Of a stretch of 23,947 nucleotides of DNA, positions 4,292 through 17,601 are shown piece by piece. How positions within the stretch are numbered: position 1 is the stretch's first letter; each line of letters opens with the position of its first letter. A program made the position numbers and the translations under genes. Source of the DNA: a virus; the IMG/VR virus record IMGVR_UViG_3300009788_000298, positions 1-23,947 of that record; one strand, 5' to 3'. The notes under the pieces are model-generated. The model saw only the letters and a list, made by a program, of their open reading frames with translations. It made no database searches and was not told the DNA's origin.

Positions 4292-5458
4292 TTAGACCGA
4301 GAAGTCGAGCTCGGATTCGTTGATGTTGCGGATCCGGAAGGGGTCGGTCCCCGCCGTGCTCCACGTCCATTCCGTGCCGTTGCCGGCGACGGTCGGCGTT
4401 GTGATTTGGAACGTAACCTCGACCGGGACTCGAGCGCCGGGACCGCCGGCGTTCGCCGGAGCCGCGGAGACCTGGAGCGAGGGGAGCTCGACGACGACCT
4501 CGTATGTATTGATCCCGCCCGTCCCGCGTCCGGTCGCCGAGTCCGAGCCCGTGATGTCCTTCCCGACCCAAATCAATTGGGCCTTGAAATTCTTGGGCTC
4601 GGATCCGGGCTGCCGCTTCTGGGCCTCGAGAATGATCGCGTCGATCGTCGGGCCGTAATCCGCGATCGAAAGGACGAGCGTCCCCTCGGGGAGGCCGTCC
4701 GTCTCGGGCTCCCCGACCTCGCCGGCGTTGCACGAGTCCGGGATCCCGGTCAAGTTGCGGTTGACATTGAGCGTTGCGTTGGTAACGCAAATGTCATCCG
4801 CCGCGAGGAGGTTCCCCTCGCTCCCCGTGACCTCGGCGATCCGCACAATCAAATGATTGAAGAGCGCGAGGAGCGTCGTCGTCGGCGGCGTGATGAGGTC
4901 GAGCTCGGTGTCGGTATTGATGACCGACTCCCGCTCGCAATGAGTCGGAATGAGCGTCGGGGTAAACATTAGTTTACCGTTGTTGTGGGTGAGGTTGATC
5001 TGGGAGATCTTCGCCGCCGAGTACTCCCAGACGATCGTCCCGTCGAGGCTCTTGTCGATAACGAGCGTCCCGAAGAAGCCCGTATTCGACGGTTGGAAAA
5101 CCATGATGTGATTTCGCGCGGTGCCGACCGTCTCGCCGATATCCGTTCCGCCGGCGACGAAGGACTGGTCGGCCATGAAGAGCGTTAGGAACCGCTCCAT
5201 TCCCTCGTATCGCACGGGGAGGACGATCGTCCCCTCTCCGACGATGTTCCCTTGGATGATGCTCTGAGCGAGCGCGTCGCCGATGTTCGCGTCCGGGATC
5301 GCTTCCGGAATCATCTCCGGCATTGCCTCCGACTCGAGGAGGACCTCGGTCAAGGCCGCGGCGGCGCCGGCGCCTCCCGCCCCGCTAACGTCGGGCCAGG
5401 CGTTCGGCGGTGTGACTACTGGAATCCAAGCCACTCTCCATTCGGTTGATCCGGCCAT
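4292..5458 (-). CDS. Major tail tube protein
   Basis: Likely the major tail protein that stacks as rings to form the tail tube. The 388-residue product starts at ATG 5458 behind a GGAGG ribosome site with 5-nt spacing. It is beta-rich and acidic. The N-terminal part has ALAQSIIQGNIVGEGTIVLP and MERFLTLFMADQSF, typical of tube-protein N-domains that describe a base level and a polymerising loop. The C-terminal region (LIWVGKDITGSDSATGRGTG, then GARVPVEVTFQITTPTV) ends in strands running to the last residues. It is longer than the smallest tube proteins (about 200 residues), so it may carry an extra surface domain. It sits between the terminator-type genes upstream and the chaperone and tape measure downstream, which supports the call more than sequence motifs do. 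Confidence 0.8.
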   Translation of the reverse strand: MAGSTEWRVAWIPVVTPPNAWPDVSGAGGAGAAAALTEVLLESEAMPEMIPEAIPDANIGDALAQSIIQGNIVGEGTIVLPVRYEGMERFLTLFMADQSFVAGGTDIGETVGTARNHIMVFQPSNTGFFGTLVIDKSLDGTIVWEYSAAKISQINLTHNNGKLMFTPTLIPTHCERESVINTDTELDLITPPTTTLLALFNHLIVRIAEVTGSEGNLLAADDICVTNATLNVNRNLTGIPDSCNAGEVGEPETDGLPEGTLVLSIADYGPTIDAIILEAQKRQPGSEPKNFKAQLIWVGKDITGSDSATGRGTGGINTYEVVVELPSLQVSAAPANAGGPGARVPVEVTFQITTPTVAGNGTEWTWSTAGTDPFRIRNINESELDFSV

Positions 5459-5474: not shown

Positions 5475-8400
5475 TCAGCGGGCGACGTTTTCGACGTAGC
5501 TCGCCGCGATCGTGACGACGTGGCCTTGGGCCCCCGTCATAAGTTGAGCCGACTTTACGGGCCCGGCGAGCGCCGGGAGCTCCCGCAGATAACCGCAGTA
5601 ACCCGAGCCCATCCCCGCCGCGAGGGCGGAGAGCTCGGTTGATTGAAGCTGGAGATCTTCGAGGACCTGGGCCGCCGCCGCGAGGAGCGCCTCGGCCTGG
5701 GTCTCGTCTTGTCTCCAACCGTAGAAACCCGTGAGCTTGACCCGCCCCACATACTCGAGCTCGCACGTCGCGAGCGGGCGGATCTCGAGCCAGGATTCGA
5801 TAAGCCAGAAGCGCGTCGCCGGCGAGAGCCCGGGGACGTCGATAACCGCGCCGTCGCGGCGGAGCTCCGCCTCGCGGGCCCAGCGCCTCGGCGAGATAAG
5901 GACCGTCCCGAAGTCCGGGCCCAGCGCCTCGAGGCGGGCCTTCAGATTCGCGACGAACGTCGAGAGCCCGGCGTAGGGGACGAAGGCCGGCGAGAGGATC
6001 TCGAGGACGCCCTCGCCGATCTGGACGGTCGAGGAGACGTCCCTCGTTAGGACCTGGATCAGGAAGTCGAGGATCTGCTCCGAGATCGTGACCGTCTCGT
6101 CTTCGATCCGGACGAAGCCGGCGATCCTGGCGACCGTCTCCGAGATCGTGACCGTCTCGTCGAGGGCGCGGACCTGGGCCATCCGCCGGTTGATCTCCTC
6201 CGAGATCGTTATCGTCTCGTTGACCGCTCGAGCGAAGTCCAGGATCCGGACGACTCCGTCCGCGATCGTGACGGTATCGGGGACCGGCCGGACGATTGCG
6301 AGGAGCCCGAGGGCGACCTCCGAGATCGTGACCGTCTCGTCGACCGGCTCGGTCTTCGCCATTCGTCGATTGATCGACTCGGCGATCGCGACGACGTCGT
6401 CGGCGAACTTGACGAAGTCCGTCCCGCCGATAACGCGGAACTCGACGACCGTCTCGCCGATCGTGACGGTATCGGTCGGGACGACCTCGGAGAGGCCGAG
6501 GAGCCGGACGATAACCTCGTCGATCGTGACGTCGTCGGGGATCAGCCGGACGAAGGTAATCGCGCGGACGATCGCCTCGTCGATCGTGACGTCGTCGCCC
6601 TGGGTCCGGGCGAGCGTCCGAGCTCGAGCGATCGTCTCCGAGATCGCGACCGTATCGGGGACGAGCTCGGTCTTCGCTTTTCGCTCGAGGACGCCCTCGG
6701 AGACCGTGACTGTGTCGGAGGCCTCGCGGACGAAGCCGAGGACCTTGAGGACCGCGTCGGCGATCGTGACGGTATCGGTCGGGACGACCTCGATCGTCCC
6801 GAGGACCCGCTGGATCGTCTCCGAGATCTGGACGACCTCGGTCGGGACGACCTCGAAGGTCCCGAGGAGCCGGACGATCGCCTCGGAGATCTGGACCGTC
6901 TCGTCGATCGGCTCGATCCTCGTCCGCAGGCGCGTGATATTTTCGCCGATCGCGACGACGTCGTCTATCAGCCGAGCGAAGTCGAGAGCGCGGACGATCC
7001 CGTCCGAGATCGTGACCGCGTCGTCGGCCAGACGGACCATCGAGAGAAGGAGGTTGATCGACTCCGAGATCTGGACGAGGTCGTCGGCGAACTCGACGAA
7101 GGCCGTCCCCGACGTCGTCCGCTTCTCGATAACGCCCTCGCCGATCGTTACCGTCTCGTCGCGGATCCGCGTCATCGCCATGAGCCGGACGATCGAGTCG
7201 GCGATCGTGACCGTCTCCTCGCGCGTCCGCGTCATCGCCATGAAGCGAACGATTCCGTCCGAGATCGTGACCGTCTCGTCGCGCGTCCGGATCTGGGTCT
7301 TTAGTCGGTTGATCGCCTCGACGATCGTTACAGTATCGGCGCGCTCCTTGACGAGGCCGAGGAACGCGAGGACCGTCTCGGCGATCGCGATCCCGGCGGT
7401 CGCCGGCGTTGGATACGGCCCGCTCGCGAAGTCGTCCAGATCCGGGGAGTCGAAAGGCGACAGCGTGAACGCGCGAAGGCCGGCATATTGCCCGGTGTCC
7501 GACATTGTGCCGGCGTCGTCGTCGTAGGTGACATCAGCCGCGGGCCAGGTGCTCGTATCGTTCCCCGGGTCGGTCGAGCCAAAGTCCCAGAACTTGAGTT
7601 GAGTCGCGGTTCCCGTCCCTATGATCGCGTAGGCGTAATAGTTCCCGTCCGTGTGCGCGTTCACGAGCTCGCCGCCGGGAACCGCGAGCGTTCGATCGAA
7701 CGTGCCCGCGCCGTCTAAGTAGCGCGTCCAGCGGATCTCATCATCCGAGGGATTCCAGGAGCACTCGTAGTGGTCGGACGTTGAGGCGGGATCGTCGACG
7801 CGAAGGCAAGCACCGTAAGCCCGCGCATTGTCCTGCGTCGCTTTGAATTTGACCCAATGATCGAGCGAGCCGGTCGGCGTATTGTGCCGGACCGCCATAT
7901 CCTGGAAAGCGTCCCCGCCGGGCTTAACGCGAAGAAGATTCCCGTTGATCTGCCACTGGTTCGTCCCGCCGTCGCTCTCGCCGAATTCGGTCCAGTCGCC
8001 GCCGAGGTTGTCACTATTCGCGCGATTGAAGTCGTCGGTATTGAGGATGCCGCCGGCGCCCCCGCCGACGATCTTTATCAACCCGCGAATCGCCGCGGCT
8101 GTCTCGCCGATCTGGACGACCTCGTCGACGATTTCCGGATGGGCCTTGAGGTAGTTGACGGCCTCAACGATCGTCTCGGTATCTCCGACCTCGCGGACGA
8201 AGTCGAGGGCGCGGACGATATCCTCGGCGACCGTCTCGGTCTCGCCGCGCTCGCGGACCTGGGCCATAAACCGAGCGATATCTTCGACGATCGTCTCGGT
8301 ATCCGGCGCGAGCTTGACGAGCGCCGCGCCGGCCGTGAACGGCGCGATAATCTGAGAGTCGGCGGTCGAGACGTTCATTACATAGGAATAGTTTCCGTGG

Positions 8401-8822
8401 TCGCCGGGATTCCGGCGGGCCTGGATTACAACGCGGAGGAGCTCCGCGGCTGCCGGCCAGGGGTCGAGGTTCGCGAGCGCGAAGGAGAAAGTCCCGACCC
8501 CGCTCATGCCCGTATCCGGAGACCAATCCGAAACGTCGCCGACGACGCATCCGGTTATATCAATCGCCTCGGCTCTCATTCGGACGTTGACCTTCGTCGC
8601 GACTGTTAGCTCGAGCTTGAGCGTGAACGTCCCGCCGGCGGGCGAGTCCCCGGAGACGTCGATCGTAAAGTCGAATTGAGTCTCGAAGACGTCATTCGAT
8701 ACGCCGCCGGGCCCGGTGATCGTCGTATCGGAGCCGATGGTTTTGTTGAGTTGATGGTTATCCCAGGCCGCGAGACAGTCGCCCGCCCAGGTTGTTTGAC
8801 GGTAAAAATAAGTCTCCGCCAT
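5475..8822 (-). CDS. Giant repeat-containing virion protein with C-terminal tail-terminator-like domain (putative neck fibre)
   Basis: A 1115-residue protein of unrecognised overall architecture. Residues 1-165 form a beta-rich domain. Residues 172-250 hold four 20-residue repeats. Residues 260-470 look like a concanavalin/LamG-type jelly roll, starting TDDFNRANSDNLGGDWTEF and followed by WQINGNLLRV. Residues 478-950 hold about 23 more repeats of the form DETVTISEaIvRllaxvRxx. Residues 954-1115 are clearly paralogous to the 175-residue tail terminator at 10107-10634: both share RFW.xE, GFYG, DE..xEALLAA and GMGxGYxGxL. Start ATG 8822 overlaps the upstream stop (TAATG). The repeat rod plus possible sugar-binding jelly roll suggests a fibre, and the terminator-like end suggests attachment to the tail-neck ring. 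Receptor-binding genes usually follow the tape measure, so this position is unusual. Function is inferred. Confidence 0.8.
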   Translation of the reverse strand: MAETYFYRQTTWAGDCLAAWDNHQLNKTIGSDTTITGPGGVSNDVFETQFDFTIDVSGDSPAGGTFTLKLELTVATKVNVRMRAEAIDITGCVVGDVSDWSPDTGMSGVGTFSFALANLDPWPAAAELLRVVIQARRNPGDHGNYSYVMNVSTADSQIIAPFTAGAALVKLAPDTETIVEDIARFMAQVRERGETETVAEDIVRALDFVREVGDTETIVEAVNYLKAHPEIVDEVVQIGETAAAIRGLIKIVGGGAGGILNTDDFNRANSDNLGGDWTEFGESDGGTNQWQINGNLLRVKPGGDAFQDMAVRHNTPTGSLDHWVKFKATQDNARAYGACLRVDDPASTSDHYECSWNPSDDEIRWTRYLDGAGTFDRTLAVPGGELVNAHTDGNYYAYAIIGTGTATQLKFWDFGSTDPGNDTSTWPAADVTYDDDAGTMSDTGQYAGLRAFTLSPFDSPDLDDFASGPYPTPATAGIAIAETVLAFLGLVKERADTVTIVEAINRLKTQIRTRDETVTISDGIVRFMAMTRTREETVTIADSIVRLMAMTRIRDETVTIGEGVIEKRTTSGTAFVEFADDLVQISESINLLLSMVRLADDAVTISDGIVRALDFARLIDDVVAIGENITRLRTRIEPIDETVQISEAIVRLLGTFEVVPTEVVQISETIQRVLGTIEVVPTDTVTIADAVLKVLGFVREASDTVTVSEGVLERKAKTELVPDTVAISETIARARTLARTQGDDVTIDEAIVRAITFVRLIPDDVTIDEVIVRLLGLSEVVPTDTVTIGETVVEFRVIGGTDFVKFADDVVAIAESINRRMAKTEPVDETVTISEVALGLLAIVRPVPDTVTIADGVVRILDFARAVNETITISEEINRRMAQVRALDETVTISETVARIAGFVRIEDETVTISEQILDFLIQVLTRDVSSTVQIGEGVLEILSPAFVPYAGLSTFVANLKARLEALGPDFGTVLISPRRWAREAELRRDGAVIDVPGLSPATRFWLIESWLEIRPLATCELEYVGRVKLTGFYGWRQDETQAEALLAAAAQVLEDLQLQSTELSALAAGMGSGYCGYLRELPALAGPVKSAQLMTGAQGHVVTIAASYVENVAR
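5979..7391 (-). repeat. About 23 tandem 60-bp (20-residue) repeats
   Basis: Within the giant virion protein, residues 478-948 consist of consecutive units near the consensus DETVTISEaIvRllaxvRxx. At DNA level, forms of gagatcgtgaccgtctcgtc recur about 60 bp apart (for example near 6082 and 6142). Two longer units, GTAFVEFADD (7080-7109) and GTDFVKFADD (6396-6425), lie eleven units apart and suggest block duplication. Confidence 0.92.
8073..8309 (-). repeat. First block of four 20-residue repeats, separated from the main array by a jelly-roll insert
   Basis: Residues 172-250 of the giant virion protein contain PDTETIVEDIARFMAQVRER, GETETVAEDIVRALDFVREV, GDTETIVEAVNYLKAHPEI and VDEVVQIGETAAAIRGLIK. 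They match the main repeat consensus but favour TETI over TVTI. About 680 bp encoding the jelly-roll domain separate this block from the main array. Confidence 0.85.
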
Positions 8823-9220
8823 TAGACCGACTCGTCCGCGAAGGCGCGCTTAAAGAGCGCGGTAAACCCGCGGCACGTTTTACACTTCGCACAAACGCAG
8901 GCGACGCCGGCGAACCACTTCCCGCGCTTGACGCGGGTCGAGGTCGGGATCCGATACTCGTCGTCGCCGTTGTATCCCGTGCGGTAGACCTCGGCGGTCG
9001 ACCGTGCCGGCGCTCGCTCCGAGATCCAAACGACTTGGACGTCGTCGTCGGGACACTCCTCCCAGGTCGTCTCCGAGGAGCAAGTCGTCGACCCGTCCCC
9101 GTACCAGATCCGCCAGCCGAGGAAGGGTCGACGCCGGGCGGCGATCTCGCGGACCTCTCCGGTCGCGCTCTTCAGGACCGCGCCCGTCGTCTCCCCCATC
9201 CCGATACGCTCGCGAATCAA
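8822..9220 (-). CDS. Hypothetical virion-type protein with C-terminal cysteine cluster
   Basis: A 132-residue product I do not recognise. The start is a TTG at 9220 (TAATTG with the upstream stop, GAGG five bases before); an ATG at codon 8 is the alternative. It has FLGWRIWYGDGSTTCSSETTW and later RGKWFAGVACVCAKCKTCRG. The three-step CxCxxCxxC pattern near residues 108-115 could bind a metal or form disulfides. Its stop overlaps the start of the giant repeat protein, so the two are probably translationally coupled. It lies in the block of small genes inserted between the tail terminator and its paralogous domain, which suggests a structural or assembly role linked to the giant protein. No catalytic motif is visible. 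Confidence 0.7.
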   Translation of the reverse strand: MIRERIGMGETTGAVLKSATGEVREIAARRRPFLGWRIWYGDGSTTCSSETTWEECPDDDVQVVWISERAPARSTAEVYRTGYNGDDEYRIPTSTRVKRGKWFAGVACVCAKCKTCRGFTALFKRAFADESV

Positions 9221-9562
9221 TTAGGCCTCGACGACGAAGTCCCCGGTCGCGACGCTCGGACCTCCGCCGACCGTCCAGGTAAACCGAATAAATCGGAAGT
9301 GTGCGCCGGTGTAGGCCTTGAAGGCCGCGGCGGTAACTCCCGCGGCGAAGGTCGCGTCGACGACGTGCAAGGTCGACTTGTCCTCCGACATCTCGATCGC
9401 GACGTCGACGTCCGGCGACGTGCCGCCCGTGAACGCGACGTTTTGGATCGCGGCGATCATCCCGTCGAGCGTTGCGTCGCCCAGGTCGAGCCAGGCGCCC
9501 GGCGACCCCGTCAACAGGTTGACCCCCGCGACCTTTTTGGTTGCGCGTCTTGCGGTGCTCAC
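9221..9562 (-). CDS. Hypothetical small structural protein, 113 aa
   Basis: Unrecognised. The start is GTG 9562, just after the upstream TAA. The sequence is Ala/Gly/Thr-rich with alternating hydrophobic residues (DVDVAIEMSEDKSTLHVVDA, then AHFRFIRFTWTVGGG), so a small beta-sandwich is likely. It has no signal peptide, membrane segment or cysteines. Composition and position among tail and neck genes fit a decoration or neck accessory protein, but nothing identifies it. Codon preferences match the neighbouring genes, and spacing is tight on both sides (3 nt upstream, abutting downstream), which supports it being translated. Confidence 0.7.
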   Translation of the reverse strand: MSTARRATKKVAGVNLLTGSPGAWLDLGDATLDGMIAAIQNVAFTGGTSPDVDVAIEMSEDKSTLHVVDATFAAGVTAAAFKAYTGAHFRFIRFTWTVGGGPSVATGDFVVEA

Positions 9563-9565
9563 CGC

Positions 9566-10096
9566 TTAGATCCCGGTGAATTGATGATTGACAAAGACCT
9601 TGAGCGTGTCGGAGGCGGTCTTCGTGAATTGCGCGCCGAAGTTTGCATACATCAGGAGCGGATCCGTACCGCTCGCGCCGTTGAGGTGGATCGAGACGCG
9701 ATCAATAACCCCGTTGGCCTCGGCGGTCGTGTAGTCCGTCTCATACGAGAGGACGTCGGGACCGCTTCCGGTGTTGTCCGCGTCGGGGTCGTCGACCTGG
9801 GGATAGCCCGCCTCGAAGGCCTTCGGGTTTCCCGAGCCGACCGGGGAGCCGATGTTGCTCCAGTTATGAGTCGCGAGCGGAGCGAGCCCCGTGTTATCGA
9901 GGCATACGATCCGCCCGGTCGCGCCTCCGAAGTCGCTCGTCGGCGTCGAGACCGCGGCCTTCGCGACCTGGGCGTAATAGACGTCTCCGGTATCGACGAC
10001 GATATTCTTCGAGACGAACTCGCGGCGGAGCCCCGTCTCCGCGTTCGTCAGAATGGCGACGACCCGGCCGCGGATTCCGATCTTTTCGTTGAGCAT
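9566..10096 (-). CDS. Virion structural protein of unassigned role, 176 aa
   Basis: The start is ATG 10096 with a strong AAGGAG ribosome site 6 nt upstream. The N-terminus, GIRGRVVAILTNAETGLRRE followed by FVSKNIVVDTGDVYYAQVAKA, has the pattern of phage structural proteins that open with a strand pair and a conserved 'N.vv..G' turn. The rest is beta-rich with Gly/Asp/Thr loops and ends NHQFTGI. There are no cysteines, signal peptide or membrane segments. Its strong ribosome site suggests higher expression than its coupled neighbours, as for a multi-copy component. It sits between the tail terminator and the small genes leading to the giant repeat protein. A neck, tail-decoration or fibre-associated role is possible, but I cannot choose between them. 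Confidence 0.72.
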   Translation of the reverse strand: MLNEKIGIRGRVVAILTNAETGLRREFVSKNIVVDTGDVYYAQVAKAAVSTPTSDFGGATGRIVCLDNTGLAPLATHNWSNIGSPVGSGNPKAFEAGYPQVDDPDADNTGSGPDVLSYETDYTTAEANGVIDRVSIHLNGASGTDPLLMYANFGAQFTKTASDTLKVFVNHQFTGI

Positions 10097-10106
10097 ACCG
10101 ATCTCC

Positions 10107-10634
10107 TTATGCGGCGAGCTCCGTAAAGTAGGCCGCCGTGATTCGCAAAACGTAGCCCTGGACGCCGGTCCCCTTGAGCTCGGCCGCTCGCGGGGGCCCC
10201 TCCATCGCTGGGCCTTCGGTGAGGAAGCCGAGATATCCGTCGCCCATCCCGACGCCGAGCTCGGCGAACTCGACCCCGCGGCGCGTTATGCCGTCCATGA
10301 TCGCGATCCCCGCGGCGAGGAGCGCCTCGTCTTCGTTCTCGTCGGACTGGTATCCGTAAAAGCCGGAGATCGAGACCGCGCCGCGGAATTGATTCGTTCC
10401 GATCGTGAGCCGCGTCGGGGTGAGCGAAGCCTCGACGACCCAGAAGCGAACCTTCGGACCGAGGTCGTCGTTAGCGTCGAAGAGGCCGTCCGCGGAGAGC
10501 TCGACTACCGCGTCGGCGTCGCGGAGGTCCTGCTGTGTGCTCCAGCGTTCCTCGGCGACGCGGACGATCCCTATGTTCGCGTCGATCGACTCGATCTTCG
10601 TCTTCAGGTTTCCGAGGAAGGTTGCCGCGCTCAT
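10107..10634 (-). CDS. Tail terminator / tail completion protein, 175 aa
   Basis: Probable tail terminator, the ring that caps the tail tube and joins it to the head connector. The start at 10634 overlaps the upstream stop by ATGA. The layout is alpha/beta: helix ATFLGNLKTKIESI, then strands, then SGFYGYQSDENEDEALLAAG and GMGDGYLGFLTEGPAMEGPP, ending with ITAAYFTELAA. The position after the HK97 gp10-like gene and before the tail genes is where terminators occur in HK97-like and lambda-like maps. The same domain forms residues 954-1115 of the giant repeat protein about 4 kb downstream, so the gene has been duplicated. The terminator role rests on gene order and size; it could instead be another neck component. 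Confidence 0.68.
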   Translation of the reverse strand: MSAATFLGNLKTKIESIDANIGIVRVAEERWSTQQDLRDADAVVELSADGLFDANDDLGPKVRFWVVEASLTPTRLTIGTNQFRGAVSISGFYGYQSDENEDEALLAAGIAIMDGITRRGVEFAELGVGMGDGYLGFLTEGPAMEGPPRAAELKGTGVQGYVLRITAAYFTELAA

Positions 10635-11173
10635 AATCGGCCGACCCGATTCCGAAACTTGTCCGCGAGGAGCTCGAGCTCCTTCCGGAGCGTGGCCTCT
10701 GCGGCGCCGGCGGCGGCGAGGAAGAAGCCGCGGCCGGGGATCCCCCGCCGTTTGATCGAGGCGACGAGCTTCTGGGTCGCGAAGTCGATCGCGTCCGAGC
10801 CCGTCTCCCCCGTCCAGGAAACATCGAAGGCGCCGCGCCGGACCTTGAGCTCGACCCAGCGCCGGATCGCCGCTGGAGGCGGCGCGGTCTGGCCGGCTCG
10901 GCGGCCGGTATCCAAGACGACGACCTGGGGCGTCGTCGAGAAAAACGAATCGCGGTAGATAAACCCGTCCGGTTTCTGGCGGACCGAGACCCCCTTCGAG
11001 AGTATCGAGTTGACGCCCTCGCCAGTGAAGACCGGCATCCCCTCGCGGGCCGCGGCGAGGCCGACCGTCGTACTCGTGGCGAGCGCCGCCTTGAGGCTCC
11101 CCTCGAGCTCGAGGGCGGCGACGTTCGCGTCCTTCGCGAAGCGCGTGAGCTCGGAGATATCGACCCGGGCCAT
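10631..11173 (-). CDS. HK97 gp10-like head-tail joining protein, 180 aa
   Basis: Likely the HK97 gp10-type protein that joins head and tail. I place the start at ATG 11173 (MARVDISELTRFAKDANVAA), which overlaps the upstream stop as TAATG. The same frame is open 47 codons further upstream, but that stretch lies inside the connector gene and reads as Arg/Pro-rich antisense-type sequence. The protein has an N-terminal helix, then a central segment with GRRAGQTAPPPAAIRRWVEL, the proline-rich loop and 'I..Wv' motif common in this family, and a C-terminal helical region (PGRGFFLAAAGAAEATLRKE). Size and position between connector and terminator fit. Its stop overlaps the terminator start by ATGA. 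Confidence 0.75.
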   Translation of the reverse strand: MARVDISELTRFAKDANVAALELEGSLKAALATSTTVGLAAAREGMPVFTGEGVNSILSKGVSVRQKPDGFIYRDSFFSTTPQVVVLDTGRRAGQTAPPPAAIRRWVELKVRRGAFDVSWTGETGSDAIDFATQKLVASIKRRGIPGRGFFLAAAGAAEATLRKELELLADKFRNRVGRL

Positions 11174-11898
11174 TAGTGCGCGACTCTCCTCTGGCCGCGG
11201 GTGAGCCTCGAGCTCGTCCGATACTGGACCGAGGTCCCGGTCGCGACCGAGGTCCCCTCGGGGTTGAGGCGTTGCTCCGCCTTCTCGCGGAGCTCGCGAG
11301 CGCGCTCGCGCCATCGCCTGTCGAATGTTTGGAAGTCGACTTGATCGACGCCGAGGGTATTGTCCGCGAGGTCCGAGGCCGCGCGGGCGATCCCCTGGGC
11401 GAGCCGCTCGGCGGCCAGGAGGAGGAGCGTTTGGGTATCCGGTGCGCGGACGGTCGTCGCCGTCGCGGTGTCGAGCTCGTCGATCGTGAGCGGGCGCGTC
11501 CAGAAGATCCGGAGCGAGGCGCCCGTGCCGATCAGATCTGAAAGGTGGAGGACCCGGTCGCCGGCGACCGAGTCGCGCGTGATCCAGCGATCATCCTCGA
11601 CCGCTTCCGCGTTCTCGTCGTCAGTGTCGGGGTCGGTGACTTTCTGGAGCCCCGAGACCGTCGAGCGATCGGCGATCCAGAGCGCCCCGATGACGGTCGG
11701 GAGGACGTAAAGGCGCGTCGTCGTATCGCCGAGCGCCTCGTGGACGAGGGTCTCGGGCCGGACGCTCGAGAGCTCGTCGAGCGCGTCGCGGACCGCGTCT
11801 TCGATTTGATCCGTTGAGGGTTGGAGCTTCTGACTCGAGACCGCAACGTACCGCGCGAGCTCGCCCTTCAGCGTTGTGAGATTCGTCCAGGCCGCCAT
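11173..11898 (-). CDS. Head-tail connector / adaptor protein, 241 aa
   Basis: Likely the gp6-type adaptor that docks under the portal. The start is ATG 11898 behind CGGAGG. The N-terminal helices (LKGELARYVAVSSQKL, then DQIEDAVRDALDELSSVRPE) match the usual pattern of connector proteins, in which a helix bundle is followed by a beta insertion (TTRLYVLPTVIGALWIADR). The C-terminal helical half includes QTLLLLAAERLAQGIARAAS and a charged region, WRERARELREKAEQRL. It is longer than minimal gp6 (about 100-120 residues), closer to extended adaptors. A 96-nt gap without a clear start separates it from the capsid gene, one of the few untranslated spacers in the operon. The role is inferred from order and helix pattern. 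Confidence 0.68.
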   Translation of the reverse strand: MAAWTNLTTLKGELARYVAVSSQKLQPSTDQIEDAVRDALDELSSVRPETLVHEALGDTTTRLYVLPTVIGALWIADRSTVSGLQKVTDPDTDDENAEAVEDDRWITRDSVAGDRVLHLSDLIGTGASLRIFWTRPLTIDELDTATATTVRAPDTQTLLLLAAERLAQGIARAASDLADNTLGVDQVDFQTFDRRWRERARELREKAEQRLNPEGTSVATGTSVQYRTSSRLTRGQRRVAH

Positions 11899-11994: not shown

Positions 11995-13890
11995 CTAAGG
12001 GGCGATCATCGAATAGACGCCGCGGTAGTCGACGATCTCCCCGCCGTCGTGGACGTGCCGGACTTTGTAGGTGATCCTATCCTGGTCGAAAAACGACCCG
12101 ACGCGCTCGAGGTCCTGGACGAAGATCTCCGGGTCTTCTCGCCCGTTGAGGAAGCCGACCTCGATTATCTCGGTCTCGCCGGGAGAGGCGGCGACGATTA
12201 CGTCATCGTCCTTTCCGACGACCTCGTCGAACTCGTGGACCTCGAAGAGATTCCACCCGTGTTTTGAGCGGAGGACGTTGACCTTCCCTCGGTTCTCGAT
12301 CGTCCCCGTGTTCGGCGTGCCGGCGACCGCGTTCGTGTCGCTCGTGAGGAGGTTCGGAGCGCCGTCCGAGAAGAGATCCGAATAGACCGTATCGTGGAGG
12401 AGCGGGCCGACGAAGACGTTCCGCGCGAGGATCCGACCCGCCTCGCGGGCGTCCATGTCTTTCTGACGAGTCATCGCCAGACGCGCGGCCTCGAGGGCGG
12501 CGAAGGAGTACGCGACCGCGGCGAGGTTGCCGTGCGTCGCGTGGAAGACCGCCGTCGCGTCCTCGTCCCATGCGTCATTGTTGAGGAGCCGACCCCATAC
12601 CAGGGAGTTGAGCGTTCGCTCGGCGGCGTTCGCGAGCTTGCGCGGGATTGCGCGGAAGCCTCGGAGGTCGTCGTTGACGATCGACTCCCAGGAGATAAAC
12701 GCGATCCCGCCGCGCTTGACGACCGTCGCTTGGACGCTCTCCTCCGTGAAGTCGGTAAGGTCGGCGCCGGGCGAGTACGCCGCGTCTTCGGCGACGTCGA
12801 TGAGATTCGAGTATTCGCCGAGCCTCACGATACGCCGCGCCCGGAAGTCCGAGACCGACGTCGTCGTCGAGACCATCTTCCAAAGGTGCGCGAGCTTCGC
12901 GTATTCACGCGCGAGGCGCTTATTCATTTGGTCCGCGAGTAACGCGGTGAATCCGGTTGTGATGATCGCCTCGAGGGCGGCGGCGCCGGTCCGGCGGCCG
13001 ATGACCTGGGCCATATAGGGATTGTCGTCCCATCCGCCGGCGTTGGTGATCGCCTCGAGGACCGGGGGGATCCCGGTCCGGCGACGCCGGAGGAGTCGCT
13101 CGCCCTCGAGGAGCGGGTCGTCCATTACGACCGCCCACATTTGACGCGGGCCGGTGAAAGCCGGGACTCGGCCGACCTCTTTCCCGGCGTCGTCGCGGAT
13201 GATTCCCTCGCGCTCGCCGGAGAGCATCGCCTCGAGCGCCGCCGCGGCGGCCTCGCCCTGGCTCCAGGCCTGGGCGTAGTGCGGCGTTCGCCCGTTGCCG
13301 TTCCCGTCGTCTCCGTCCAAGAGTCCGCCTCCCTTGGCCTGGCCTTTGCCGAGGCTCTTCTTCAGGTCGGAGACGAAGGCGTCGATCGTCTTCCGGGTGA
13401 TCTTCCCCTCGCTCTCGAGCGTTGCCGTGAGCCGAGCCGCGGCGAACTTCGCGAGCCCCTCGGGGAGCTCGGCCTTCTCGATCCCGGCCTCGATCAGATC
13501 GCGACCGTTCTCGAGGAGGATCTCCGCGAGTTGCTCCTCGGTTGCCGTCTGGGCGGCCTGGAGCCCCTCGAGGGCGCCGGCGCCGTCCGGATCGGCCTCG
13601 GGGTCGACGACCGGCGGTCGGCGCGGAGGGGCCTTCTTCTTCGCCGTCTTCTTCTTCTTCGCGGGCTCGGGAGCGTGGCGAGCCAGTGCCTCGAGGACCG
13701 GGCCCGCTTCGCCCTCGAGCTCGCCCAGGTCGAGCGCCTCGAGGAGAGCCTCCGCGAAATCTTCGTGCTCCTCGACGAGGAGCTCCTCCGGTTTCTCGAT
13801 AGCCTTGAGCGCATCGGTGAGCAAGGCCTCGAGCGCCGGACGTTTCTCCTCCGATACCAGTCGGAGAAGCCTCTCGATAAACTTCTTCAT
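11995..13890 (-). CDS. Nested scaffold-capsid product from internal in-frame start, 631 aa
   Basis: Inside the polyprotein gene, ATG 13890 (residue 197, MKKFIERLLRLVSEEKRPAL) follows a perfect AAGGAGGT with 8-nt spacing. This is the strongest ribosome site in the window and lies exactly between the protease and scaffold regions. Translation from it would give scaffold plus capsid without protease. This resolves the stoichiometry problem of a fused gene: many capsid precursors and few proteases. Lambda C/Nu3 is the known precedent for an in-frame scaffold nested in a protease gene; here the nested product would also include the capsid. The ribosome site is seen directly, while use of the start is inferred. 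Confidence 0.65.
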   Translation of the reverse strand: MKKFIERLLRLVSEEKRPALEALLTDALKAIEKPEELLVEEHEDFAEALLEALDLGELEGEAGPVLEALARHAPEPAKKKKTAKKKAPPRRPPVVDPEADPDGAGALEGLQAAQTATEEQLAEILLENGRDLIEAGIEKAELPEGLAKFAAARLTATLESEGKITRKTIDAFVSDLKKSLGKGQAKGGGLLDGDDGNGNGRTPHYAQAWSQGEAAAAALEAMLSGEREGIIRDDAGKEVGRVPAFTGPRQMWAVVMDDPLLEGERLLRRRRTGIPPVLEAITNAGGWDDNPYMAQVIGRRTGAAALEAIITTGFTALLADQMNKRLAREYAKLAHLWKMVSTTTSVSDFRARRIVRLGEYSNLIDVAEDAAYSPGADLTDFTEESVQATVVKRGGIAFISWESIVNDDLRGFRAIPRKLANAAERTLNSLVWGRLLNNDAWDEDATAVFHATHGNLAAVAYSFAALEAARLAMTRQKDMDAREAGRILARNVFVGPLLHDTVYSDLFSDGAPNLLTSDTNAVAGTPNTGTIENRGKVNVLRSKHGWNLFEVHEFDEVVGKDDDVIVAASPGETEIIEVGFLNGREDPEIFVQDLERVGSFFDQDRITYKVRHVHDGGEIVDYRGVYSMIAP

Positions 13891-14478
13891 TGGGACAGAC
13901 CTCCTTAGTGCGAGAGCTTCCAGTACCGGGAGAATCCGGCCGCCGGCGCTCGGTTGTGTGACCGTATCGAAACCGACAATGCGACCGACTCCGCTTATCT
14001 GGCGACCGAATGCCGCCAGCGTTCGCGAGGTCATCCCTCCGACTGGAACGTGAATAGATAGCCCGAGCTTTCGCCCGAGCTTGGTTGCCGCTTGGATAAC
14101 TCGACGAAGGAAACCCGAGGACTCGCCCTCGAGCTCGATCTTCGCGCGGACGTGTTGTCGACCGTCGTCCCCCGACTCGACCGTCGCGCTTTTGATCGTG
14201 GCGCCCTTCGCGCCGGCGAGCTTCTCGTCGAGAAGATCGCGGATGCCCGGCGGGAGACGTTGGCGCAAGAATTCAAAGTGTGAGAGGTTCGACCCGTCGC
14301 GATTGCGCGAGAAGTCGTAAACGTTGATCGGTGTCCCGGGAGCGAGCCGAGCGATATCCTCGAGCGCCTGTTTCGTCCAGACGTTCCCATTTTTCGAGCG
14401 CCCCTCTTCGATCAGGATCGCGGAGATCTCTTCGCCCTCGAGGACGATCGAGCTTCCGTCGAGGTATCGCTTCGGCAT
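11995..14478 (-). CDS. Prohead protease-scaffold-major capsid polyprotein, 827 aa
   Basis: One open frame appears to carry three head functions. Residues 1-190 resemble a prohead serine protease: EEGRSKNGNVWTKQALEDIA is the usual N-terminal motif, and KLGLSIHVPVGG contains candidate nucleophile Ser141, with His67, His109 and His143 as candidate partners. Residues 197-400 are helical and highly charged (EKRPALEALLTDALKAIEKP, a Lys/Pro linker at 273-288, then the NGRDLIEAGIEKAELPEGLA segment), as in scaffold or delta domains. From about 480 onwards it matches gpT-like HK97-fold capsids, with AVFHATHGNLAAVAYSFAAL, MTRQKDMDAR and NVFVGPLLHD. The start is ATG 14478 behind GAGGAG. Self-cleavage near the Gly-rich stretch at 378-398 would release mature capsid. 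Fused protease-capsid genes are known; the exact cleavage site and catalytic set are inferred. Confidence 0.85.
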   Translation of the reverse strand: MPKRYLDGSSIVLEGEEISAILIEEGRSKNGNVWTKQALEDIARLAPGTPINVYDFSRNRDGSNLSHFEFLRQRLPPGIRDLLDEKLAGAKGATIKSATVESGDDGRQHVRAKIELEGESSGFLRRVIQAATKLGRKLGLSIHVPVGGMTSRTLAAFGRQISGVGRIVGFDTVTQPSAGGRILPVLEALALRRSVPMKKFIERLLRLVSEEKRPALEALLTDALKAIEKPEELLVEEHEDFAEALLEALDLGELEGEAGPVLEALARHAPEPAKKKKTAKKKAPPRRPPVVDPEADPDGAGALEGLQAAQTATEEQLAEILLENGRDLIEAGIEKAELPEGLAKFAAARLTATLESEGKITRKTIDAFVSDLKKSLGKGQAKGGGLLDGDDGNGNGRTPHYAQAWSQGEAAAAALEAMLSGEREGIIRDDAGKEVGRVPAFTGPRQMWAVVMDDPLLEGERLLRRRRTGIPPVLEAITNAGGWDDNPYMAQVIGRRTGAAALEAIITTGFTALLADQMNKRLAREYAKLAHLWKMVSTTTSVSDFRARRIVRLGEYSNLIDVAEDAAYSPGADLTDFTEESVQATVVKRGGIAFISWESIVNDDLRGFRAIPRKLANAAERTLNSLVWGRLLNNDAWDEDATAVFHATHGNLAAVAYSFAALEAARLAMTRQKDMDAREAGRILARNVFVGPLLHDTVYSDLFSDGAPNLLTSDTNAVAGTPNTGTIENRGKVNVLRSKHGWNLFEVHEFDEVVGKDDDVIVAASPGETEIIEVGFLNGREDPEIFVQDLERVGSFFDQDRITYKVRHVHDGGEIVDYRGVYSMIAP
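13899..13906 (-). promoter_or_regulatory. Internal Shine-Dalgarno AAGGAGGT
   Basis: On the minus strand, AAGGAGGT is followed by CTGTCCCA and ATG. This is full complementarity to the 16S rRNA 3' end with ideal spacing, inside an open frame where it reads as Leu-Arg-Arg-Ser. The AGG AGG arginine pair is unusual here, since neighbouring Arg codons are mostly CGN, which suggests selection for the ribosome site. Confidence 0.75.
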
Positions 14479-15167: not shown

Positions 15168-16841
15168 TTACATTCGCCCCCTCTCGAGGATCCGAAAGAC
15201 GAAGGCCTCGAGATCCGCCGGGAGCGTCCCGCGGATGTAGTTCTCGCGCGTAACGAACGAGACGAGCTCCGCCCAGGCCTCGACGCCGCCGCCGCCGGCG
15301 CCGGTCCCCTCCCACGAGTACCAGCGCGCCGCGTATTGACTCTCGACGTTCTCCGCCCACCAGGACGCGCCGCCGTATCGGTAATTTTCCCCGGGCGATC
15401 GGACCTTGGCGCGGGTTGGATATCTCCGCATGAGAGCGCGCCATTCTTCGCTCGACTGGACCGCGTAAGCACTGTCGAGGTGGTGCCCCCACTCGTGCCG
15501 CCAGACGTCCTCGACCCCGTGACCGCCTCGGGTTGTCGTCGACCGCCTCCAGACCTGGGCGCCGTTGACCGTGATCCGCGACTCGTTAAGGTGTCCCGCG
15601 ACCGAGAAGTCCGAAGTCGAGCCGACGCTAATCGTCGAGCTCCGGCTTGTCCGGTGCCATCCGCCCCCGCCGCGGTTGGCGACGAGGTTCGGAAGGTTCC
15701 GCACGTTCGCCCCTGGATAGCGAGCGACCATCGAAGCGTGTTCGACCGCGACTCGCTCGAGCGTCCGCGCGAAGAGCTCGTCCGATTTGAGGCCGGGCCC
15801 GCGCCGGACCGTCCTCTCCCCGATCCCCATCCGGTTGAGCTCGCGCTTCGCCGCGGTGATCCGTTGCGTCGGACTCCCGACGCCGGGACGGAAAATTGGG
15901 GCCGCCGGCGGGGTGGGTGCTGGCCGCGGCTTTGGCGGGCGCGGCCTGCGGGCTCGCGAGGGCCTGGCCGCCGGAGGCCCCTTGGCGGTCCTTGAGGGGA
16001 CGGGGACGAGGTAGCATCCGCAATTGATAACGGCCTCGGGAGGGCCCCCTGGGTCGCGCGGAAAGCGCAATTTAACGGCGCCGCCCGATCGGAGAGGGAC
16101 CCGGAAGCGCCCGCGCTTCGTCGGGACCGTCTGGCCGTTGATGCTCGCATGTTCCCGGCGGGAGATCCCGCTCCAGCGCCAGGACTTCGACGTCGGGACC
16201 CGCTCATTGAGCTCGCGGATATTTTGCTCGGTAAGGATGGAATGGAGCCGGAGGGTCTCGGTCCGATAGATTCGCTCGGCGGCGAAGCGCCAGGAGCGGA
16301 GTCGATCCCCGCGGAAGGCCTGGACGAGCTCCGAAGTCGCATCGAAGGCCGTTTGACCGGCGATCCCAAGGGCGGCGCGACGAACTATACCATTGACGTC
16401 GTCGAGGACCTTCTGGCGGAGGCCGCCCCCACTGAGCCCGATCAGGTCGGCCGAGAAGTCGGAGGCGACGTCGATCGCCCGCGCGGTGTTCGCGATATTG
16501 CCCGCAATATCGAGCGAGCCCGGGAGGAAGGCCTGGCCGTAAACGAGGCGGAGCTCGCCGGCGAGGAAGGCCTGGTTCGCCATCCCGCCGCGGCCGATAA
16601 CGCCGAGCTCGGAAACGAGTTGATCGAGCTCGACCGCGACGCTCGAGAGTACGCTTTGATTGATCGCGGTCGAGAGCGCGAAGCGCGTTCCCGGGATCGT
16701 CCCGACCGCCCTCGAGGCGAAGGAGCGGAAGGAGTCCTCGATCCGCCGGAGGTCGGCGAGTTGTATCACGTCGCTTCGCCGGATCAGCGCCGAGACCTGG
16801 CGCTCGTATCGACTCCGCGTCGTCGTCGCGAGGTTTGGCAC
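15168..16841 (-). CDS. MuF-type minor head protein with C-terminal zincin-like metallopeptidase domain, 557 aa
   Basis: The start is GTG 16841, overlapping the upstream TAG (TAGTG). Residues 1-280 resemble the SPP1 gp7/Mu gpF minor head family: helical N-terminal half, ERIYRTETLRLHSILTEQ, the WRWSGISRREHASINGQTVP block and a closing EAVINCGCYLVP. A Pro/Arg-rich linker spans 290-318. Residues 320-557 form a second domain with DVWRHEWGHHLDSAYA; His449, Glu450 and His453 make a HExxH zinc site, and EAWAE (521-525) is a plausible third-ligand helix, as in gluzincin-like peptidases. Plain MuF proteins lack this domain, but fusions of MuF domains to toxins or enzymes are known. The peptidase could act during head maturation, on ejection into the host, or as an effector. 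The zinc motif is visible; activity and target are inferred. Confidence 0.82.
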   Translation of the reverse strand: MPNLATTTRSRYERQVSALIRRSDVIQLADLRRIEDSFRSFASRAVGTIPGTRFALSTAINQSVLSSVAVELDQLVSELGVIGRGGMANQAFLAGELRLVYGQAFLPGSLDIAGNIANTARAIDVASDFSADLIGLSGGGLRQKVLDDVNGIVRRAALGIAGQTAFDATSELVQAFRGDRLRSWRFAAERIYRTETLRLHSILTEQNIRELNERVPTSKSWRWSGISRREHASINGQTVPTKRGRFRVPLRSGGAVKLRFPRDPGGPPEAVINCGCYLVPVPSRTAKGPPAARPSRARRPRPPKPRPAPTPPAAPIFRPGVGSPTQRITAAKRELNRMGIGERTVRRGPGLKSDELFARTLERVAVEHASMVARYPGANVRNLPNLVANRGGGGWHRTSRSSTISVGSTSDFSVAGHLNESRITVNGAQVWRRSTTTRGGHGVEDVWRHEWGHHLDSAYAVQSSEEWRALMRRYPTRAKVRSPGENYRYGGASWWAENVESQYAARWYSWEGTGAGGGGVEAWAELVSFVTRENYIRGTLPADLEAFVFRILERGRM

Positions 16842-16993
16842 TATTTACTCGCGCGCCCCCTGTAACCCCAGGCGACGATCGCCGTCCAGATCAGGGCGAC
16901 GACCGCCCAGAAGACTTGAGGCGCGATTGCGTAGTAATCGGCGAGGCGCTCGAGGAATCGACCGAAGGCGTCGACCGTCTCGGGAGCCGTCAA
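16841..16993 (-). CDS. Small single-pass membrane protein, 50 aa
   Basis: The start is TTG 16993, overlapping the preceding TGA as TTGA; its stop TAG overlaps the next gene's GTG. The longer ATG-started version of this frame runs back inside the upstream gene and reads as Arg-rich antisense-type sequence, so the short form is preferred. It has a polar, amphipathic N-terminus (DAFGRFLERLADYY), one hydrophobic segment of about 20 residues (VFWAVVALIWTAIVAWGY) and a basic end (RGRASK), which predicts an N-out, C-in topology. Size and shape would fit a holin- or antiholin-like protein, a superinfection-exclusion protein or a chaperone for the secreted neighbour. No family recognised. Confidence 0.6.
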   Translation of the reverse strand: MTAPETVDAFGRFLERLADYYAIAPQVFWAVVALIWTAIVAWGYRGRASK

Positions 16994-17601
16994 TTCGCGT
17001 CCCCGAGCCCGATAACGACGCCGAGCTCGAAGCGCGTCACGAGATCGACGGATCCGAGCTCCGGTGATCGAGGTCCGAAGATCCCGTCGACCGCCTCCTG
17101 GAAACCGAGCGAGGCGACGGGCCGGACGCGCCCCTTGACGCCGTTGTAGATCGCGCCAACCTCGAGGCCGACCGCGTTGAGGGTCTGGCGGTCGAGGTCG
17201 TAGCGTCCAAGAGTCCCTTTTACAATGAGGTCCCACTCGTAACGAAGGCGCCAGGCGTCATCGGCGCTCGAGATCTCGACGCCGTTCCCCTGACCGTCGT
17301 CCTCGTCCCCGGGACACGGGGGACACAGGACGACGATCGGCACGCCGCGCGGTGAGCAAGGATGCTCCGCCGGCTCGAGCTCGCCGACCTCGCCGGCGGG
17401 ACACTCATTCTCGCGGATGTAACCCGCGGCCTCGCAAGTCGCGGCGACGTCGAGCGTGACCTCCGGGCAAGGGTCGGGACAGTCCGCGAGGGCCTGGCCG
17501 AGGCCGAAGCCGGCCAGGAGCGCGCCGATCGTGCCGAGGAAGGCCGCGCGCCTCCAGCGGATCCGGCCCTTCTCTTCGAGGTTGATTCTGGTCGTCGTCA
17601 T
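16990..17601 (-). CDS. Secreted Cys-rich protein between portal and MuF genes, 203 aa
   Basis: The start is ATG 17601, overlapping the portal stop (ATGA). The N-terminus has a basic region (RIRWRR), a hydrophobic core (AAFLGTIGALLAGFGLGQ) and ALADC, a signal peptidase I-type ALA site; Asp before Cys argues against a lipobox. The mature part is Cys/Pro-rich at first (DCPDPCPEVTLDVAATCEAA, later VVLCPPCPG), likely disulfide-bonded outside the cytoplasm. From residue 115, alternating strands such as WRLRYEWDLIVKGTLGRYDL and FELGVVIGLG recall outer-membrane beta-barrel strands. A secreted product here is unexpected in a packaging and head cassette. Lysis, envelope modification or superinfection exclusion are options. 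I recognise no family. Confidence 0.7.
   Translation of the reverse strand: MTTTRINLEEKGRIRWRRAAFLGTIGALLAGFGLGQALADCPDPCPEVTLDVAATCEAAGYIRENECPAGEVGELEPAEHPCSPRGVPIVVLCPPCPGDEDDGQGNGVEISSADDAWRLRYEWDLIVKGTLGRYDLDRQTLNAVGLEVGAIYNGVKGRVRPVASLGFQEAVDGIFGPRSPELGSVDLVTRFELGVVIGLGDAN

Follow-up and report, generated by a model that had tools for sequence, protein, structure and literature searches.

A second tail terminator domain fused to a long repeat protein in an uncultured phage: a candidate neck-anchored arm

Tail terminators form a hexamer atop the tail tube in which beta-sheets line the channel, helices lie outside and the head side is bound, as described for T5 (PMC11784142) and phage 812 (PMC12886913). 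The terminators of lambda (gpU), T5 (p142), GTA and Mu are single short proteins whose genes lie before that of the tube protein. Several terminators carry extra domains, including a beta-sandwich in phage 812 (PMC12886913), a hairpin in A-1(L) and a duplicated terminator-like domain in PVC16 (PMC11784142). Separately from terminators, neck fibers or whiskers with carbohydrate-binding ends exist in other phages (PMC6669499; PMC10966104). Specifically, the neck passage structure of lactococcal phages (the 936 phages and TP901-1) consists of a long modular protein that carries an adhesin at its end and has been proposed to extend out from the neck, with an N-terminal BppU-like anchor around the portal/adaptor, a trimeric coiled-coil stalk and a C-terminal carbohydrate-binding module (CBM) (PMC6669499, PMC10747895). 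The attachment of neck fibers and collars is often unclear, and for TP901-1 its molecular basis is stated to be unknown (PMC10747895). The neck fiber of Anabaena phage A-1(L) is a multi-gene bead chain with a CBM at its end that attaches non-covalently, via gp82, to a pentadecameric neck ring (PMC10966104). Phage 812 (whiskers and decoration proteins) and T4 (fibritin) also have appendages at their neck rings; these are separate ring-bound proteins that are not fused to a terminator (PMC12886913, PMC10966104).

Here we describe a phage locus encoding two copies of a tail terminator, one free-standing (T1) and one (T2) at the C-terminal end of a 1115-aa protein. T1, and by homology T2, share the fold of the lambda, T5, GTA and Mu terminators as well as their gene place before the tube protein; in contrast to these, however, T2 is fused to an arm of ~950 aa. 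The fusion would resemble the lactococcal neck passage structure in being long, modular and putatively adhesin-ended with a proposed projection at the neck, but its predicted anchor is a C-terminal terminator so that polarity would be reversed. With the A-1(L) neck fiber it would share a multi-gene, bead-chain character and a putative carbohydrate-binding end, but it has internal repeats where that fiber has stacked copies of gp81 (PMC10966104). We found neither a terminator-fiber fusion nor a terminator paralogue with a ~950-aa repeat or adhesin arm in the open-access literature searched. Neck appendages are already known, and it is the proposed terminator-fused anchor that is new relative to the literature found.

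The late gene cluster and its two terminator copies

The stretch of DNA analyzed (the window) is an IMG/VR virus record of 23,947 bases from an uncultured virus of bacteria. Its late genes are clustered on the minus strand in the order terminase, portal, MuF-like protein, protease-capsid fusion, neck genes, T1, three small genes, the 1115-aa protein, tail-tube protein, chaperone-like genes and tape measure, the last being incomplete and extending past the window edge. The genome is siphophage-like. Gene position, and synteny with a relative (G001, an IMG/VR contig of 41,451 bp, locus L004), contributed to the naming of the terminase, portal and neck genes. The features discussed below are as follows, all on the minus strand.

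10631..11314, minus: gene immediately ahead of T1, whose position makes it a candidate gp10-like neck/head-completion gene (43% identical to its syntenic counterpart in G001)
10107..10634, minus: T1, free-standing tail terminator, 175 aa (AF2 model; 40% identity to the syntenic G001 terminator)
9566..10096, minus: small cassette gene, 176 aa, with its own Shine-Dalgarno-like AAGGAG (ORF)
9221..9562, minus: small cassette gene, 113 aa, GTG start (ORF)
8822..9220, minus: small cassette gene, 132 aa, start TTG at 9220 or ATG at 9199 (ORF)
5475..8822, minus: terminator-fiber fusion, 1115 aa (single ORF; paralogy; repeats)
8328..8822, minus: fusion N-terminal domain, residues 1-165, predicted distal end
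8103..8303, minus: first repeat block, four 20-aa repeats, about residues 174-240
7398..8075, minus: candidate lectin-like jelly roll, about residues 250-475 (~220 residues; weak DUF7257 and phrog_2804 matches)
6000..7397, minus: second repeat block, 23 repeats of 20 aa, about residues 476-941, candidate stalk
5475..5966, minus: T2, second terminator domain, about residues 953-1115, predicted C-terminal anchor (homology to T1 and the G001 terminator)
4292..5458, minus: major tail (tube) protein, separated from T2 by 16 bp (match to Pfam Phage_tube_2 at E 4e-5, slightly short of the cut-off)

The gp10-like gene overlaps T1 by 4 bp and no family match was found for it. The tube protein is 41% identical to the product of the G001 gene that adjoins the G001 terminator.

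An earlier note on this DNA, made by eye, had aligned the 175-aa protein along its whole length with residues 954-1115 of the fusion, and this alignment is confirmed. Specifically, T1 and fusion residues 954-1114 are identical at 61 of 171 positions (36%) and positive at 59% (BLASTP E 6e-30; phmmer 103 bits), and their local alignment score of 302 lies far above that of 1000 shuffles (30 ± 5, maximum 55; z about 55). The motifs that had been read as shared, GFYG, DE...EALLAA (given there as DE..xEALLAA) and GMGxGYxGxL, are found in both copies. By sequence comparison, T1 and the T2 region are real paralogues. The fusion is one uninterrupted ORF in which the terminator is joined to the rest, and in-frame start codons are absent between codons 882 and 1024. 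Without a start codon close to the junction, T2 very probably occurs solely as a domain of the 1115-aa product, and its separate production was rejected.

An AF2 model of T1, built with three aligned sequences as input, is of moderate confidence (pLDDT 60, pTM 0.64). A Foldseek search with this model returned lambda gpU as the top match (E 4.9e-6) followed by neck and terminator structures that include those of P74-26 and T5. VIA-align gave Z scores of 10-11 over 125-139 residues to the terminators of lambda, T5, GTA, Mu and R4C, with collar and cap proteins of tail-like machines also at 10-11. The scores of 10.5-11 for gpU, T5 p142 and GTA exceed the 7-8 typical of models without a clear match, and no other fold is among the top structural matches. 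The order of helix, beta-sheet, helix and beta in the model agrees with the terminator fold, and the gene lies between the neck genes and the tube protein, which is the place of the single G001 terminator. By modeled fold and by synteny, T1 is a tail terminator; where the earlier note had allowed for a baseplate or fiber-tip fold in the shared domain, the T1 model has the tail-terminator fold.

T2 is homologous to terminators over the whole domain, with 36% identity to T1 and 43% to the G001 terminator over 171-174 alignment columns. In a model of the whole fusion, which is of low confidence (mean pLDDT 39), the order of helices and strands across residues 944-1110 resembles that of T1. Homology to T1 together with this similar order indicates that T2 probably has the terminator fold. 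Sequence searches of the PDB gave nothing useful, and profile-profile comparison of the window terminators with candidates from Mae-JY22 and L005 was not significant, with too few sequences in the profiles; the Mae-JY22 candidate gene itself matches the tail terminator family phrog_4204. A further match came from BFVD, where A0A6J7WP33 of an uncultured Caudovirales phage was aligned to the T1 model by Foldseek across 175 columns (TMq 0.52, E 2.9e-5). This protein is much shorter than the fusion (404 aa) and has a different annotated domain (DUF1566). It may be an independent, shorter terminator-adhesin fusion, and hints that other phages may use terminators as adhesin anchors too.

The predicted arm and its cassette

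The earlier count of about 27 repeats in the fusion is borne out, with 27 copies at a period of 20 aa in a block of 4 (residues about 174-240) and a block of 23 (about 478-940; consensus of all copies DTVTISEGIVRLLAFVRVRD). The DNA of the repeats has diverged, with 60-74% identity over 84 nt. Irregular spacers, GTAFVEFADD and GTDFVKFADD, precede the repeats at residues 583 and 811; they lie 228 aa apart (window 6389-7121, minus strand), and this spacing suggests that a larger unit of the array has been duplicated. The N-terminal domain (residues 1-165), previously called a beta domain, has no sequence match in Pfam, PHROG, NCBIfam or the PDB and gave no confident model. As for the proposed jelly roll, the region (residues about 255-470) matches DUF7257 at E 4.5e-5 to 6.5e-5 (23.1 bits, under the Pfam cut-off of 27) and the 'virion structural protein' family phrog_2804 at E 6e-4. 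Its weak tblastn matches are to proteins of mycobacteriophages and Gordonia phages (E 0.3-0.7), of which two are annotated as minor tail proteins. On these weak matches, residues about 250-475 are possibly a lectin-like jelly roll. Judged by repeat architecture and length, the ~950 non-terminator residues look like an adhesin-like arm or fiber.

As the earlier note described, the two terminator copies flank three small ORFs (176, 113 and 132 aa), which are tightly packed between T1 and the fusion gene. The 176-aa gene had no match at E <= 1 in a tblastn search of 50,697 phage records, and its only family matches are weak (phrog_5417, E 0.04). Comparison of the three small genes with one another and with residues 1-165 of the fusion revealed no homology. 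From the tight operon packing we infer that the small genes could be accessory partners of the fusion. The fusion gene begins within the stop of the 132-aa gene, in the sequence TAATG, and no clear ribosome-binding site precedes it. The tube gene, by contrast, has AGGAGG, and this difference would fit a low-copy fusion product. GC content and codon usage are even across the cassette and match those of neighboring genes.

Comparison with a single-terminator relative

One informative relative, G001, was found. Its late cluster has the same order (TerL-portal-MuF-small-protease/MCP-hc1-gp10-T-MTP-chaperones-TMP), with most genes at 40-50% identity, and contains a single terminator of 179 aa located 12 bp before the tube gene. 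Across the whole 41,451-bp contig no homologue was found for any of the three small genes or for the fusion outside T2. With a single terminator directly before the tube gene in G001, the second copy and the fiber cassette are extra relative to that phage; gain in the window lineage and loss in the relative both fit this one-relative comparison. Across 163 ungapped columns the G001 terminator is identical to T2 at 74 (45%) and to T1 at 66 (40%), which is a tie (bootstrap P 0.84). T2 is therefore conserved as well as T1, so that it looks constrained and is not a decaying copy, and both copies look maintained at the level of their sequences.

The three terminators are nearly equidistant in a star-like tree (branch lengths 0.71 for T1, the longest, and 0.57 and 0.52 for the others), and T1 and T2 have diverged as deeply as the two phages have. 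This near-equidistance indicates that the event was not recent, or that one copy came from a related phage. The cassette lies between the 5' context of the terminator, which T1 has kept, and the 3' context, which T2 has kept, and this position fits either a tandem duplication around the cassette or import of a fiber-terminator module. No close relatives of T1 or the fusion were found in INPHARED, in single-sequence scans of IMG/VR, in PLSDB (fusion) or in GTDB genomes (terminator and MCP alignments), although such absence is weak evidence since these scans back-translate few peptides.

In myophages the sheath gene usually lies between the terminator and tube protein genes. G001 has no gene between its terminator and tube protein, and a myophage-like pair of tube and sheath terminators was set aside. 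In a distant capsid relative (L007, 11616-15372, plus strand) several genes lie between the capsid and a positional terminator candidate, among them genes for fiber-like or repeat-rich proteins of 428 and 451 aa; this interval is possibly another adhesin cassette in the neck region.

A proposed terminator-anchored neck arm and its alternatives

We favor the reading, at a probability of roughly 0.6, in which the second copy of the terminator serves to hold a long, adhesin-like arm at the joint between head and tail. The earlier proposal that a terminator copy has turned into a fiber anchor is sustained as regards the terminator fold, the single ORF and a cassette that is extra relative to G001, whereas display at the neck is a prediction. 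T2 would be a ring subunit at the head-docking end of the tail tube: the terminator ring there could consist of T2 only or of both copies, or T2 could make up an additional ring. The arm, joined before the N-terminal helix of T2, could project outward because terminator helices lie on the outer side of the ring, and the N-terminal domain and jelly roll would be shown at the neck towards its far end. The polarity would be inverted relative to usual tail fibers, with a C-terminal anchor and an N-terminal tip, and T2 could carry up to six arms into the ring. In the T5 terminator the N-terminus contributes to contacts between subunits, and the protein stayed monomeric when tagged there (PMC11784142). 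An N-terminal arm of 950 aa could therefore impede assembly of an all-T2 ring, a problem that a mixed T1/T2 ring would ease. Whether the duplicated terminator is a covalent C-terminal anchor in all these particulars, with a mixed or double ring and radiating adhesin arms of reversed polarity, we consider about evenly balanced. If the favored reading is true, a terminator-encoded fiber would be a genetically simple anchor of fixed geometry with up to six arms, and the terminator ring would tolerate large cargo. Long proteins that contain a terminator domain, or terminator pairs flanking a cassette, would also provide a searchable signature for neck-displayed adhesins in uncultured phages.

What the arm would do at the neck is a separate matter. 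It could be a structural whisker or collar that contributes to stability, tail-fiber retraction or attachment to surfaces or particles and has no part in host recognition. Such roles have been ascribed to T4 neck fibers, the CBM of the A-1(L) neck fiber does not bind its host (PMC10966104), which means that neck display need not mean receptor binding, and the neck decoration of phage 812 may stabilize the neck (PMC12886913). Given that the neck CBM of a 936 phage does bind host cells, if weakly (PMC6669499), and that the fusion has a putative lectin-like jelly roll with weak matches in minor tail proteins, we regard a purely structural role as a possible but somewhat doubtful alternative to an arm that would bind a host or surface. 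A placement at the tail tip or side, with a C-terminal domain that is merely terminator-like (for example a tube-like baseplate docking domain), has in its favor that terminator and tube protein folds are related (PMC11784142) and that most receptor fibers sit at the tip; this is nevertheless very improbable, since T2 shares 36-43% identity with proteins identified as terminators through synteny and fold.

The two copies could also have the opposite roles, with T2 and its arm as the working terminator and T1 in some other role at the joint (a second ring or head-side docking) or disappearing. T2 does lie directly before the tube gene, as the single G001 terminator does, and of the three branches that of T1 is the longest (0.71, versus 0.57 and 0.52), but this difference is not significant. 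T1 moreover retains the 5' context of the G001 terminator (the overlap with the gp10-like gene) and a loop at residues 49-58 that is present in G001 and missing from T2, and we consider the exchange of roles unlikely. We think it rather less likely still that the cassette arose by recombination or through chimeric assembly, with a fiber-T2 module of a related phage lying beside the resident T1 and the pair perhaps non-functional. The star-like relationship of the three terminators is as expected if one copy was imported, and the arrangement is carried by a single metagenomic contig with no second instance found in the database scans. However, GC content and codon usage are even across the cassette, its ORFs are intact and tightly packed, and the divergence of the repeat DNA makes a repeat-driven misjoin unlikely; even if a chimeric junction lay within the repeats, T2 would remain fused to some of them, and natural transfer is compatible with function.

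Additional observations were made elsewhere in the late cluster. The capsid gene (11995-14478, minus strand) encodes an MCP fused to an N-terminal part, as is likewise the case in G001, and matches phrog_133 and phrog_4523 (head maturation protease; major head and protease protein). Between the portal and MuF genes (16841-17601, minus strand) are two small ORFs without a counterpart in G001, one coding for a Cys-rich protein of 203 aa with an N-terminal hydrophobic segment and the other ending in the hydrophobic segment WAVVALIWTAIVAWGYRG; these are possibly lysis genes in an unusual place. Finally, the MuF-like minor head protein (15168-16841, minus strand; 7836-9527, plus strand, of L004) has a conserved C-terminal HExxH, in the context WRHEWGHHLD in the window and FRHELGHVLD in the relative, that is unrecognized by Pfam and suggests that this protein carries a zincin-like metallopeptidase domain.
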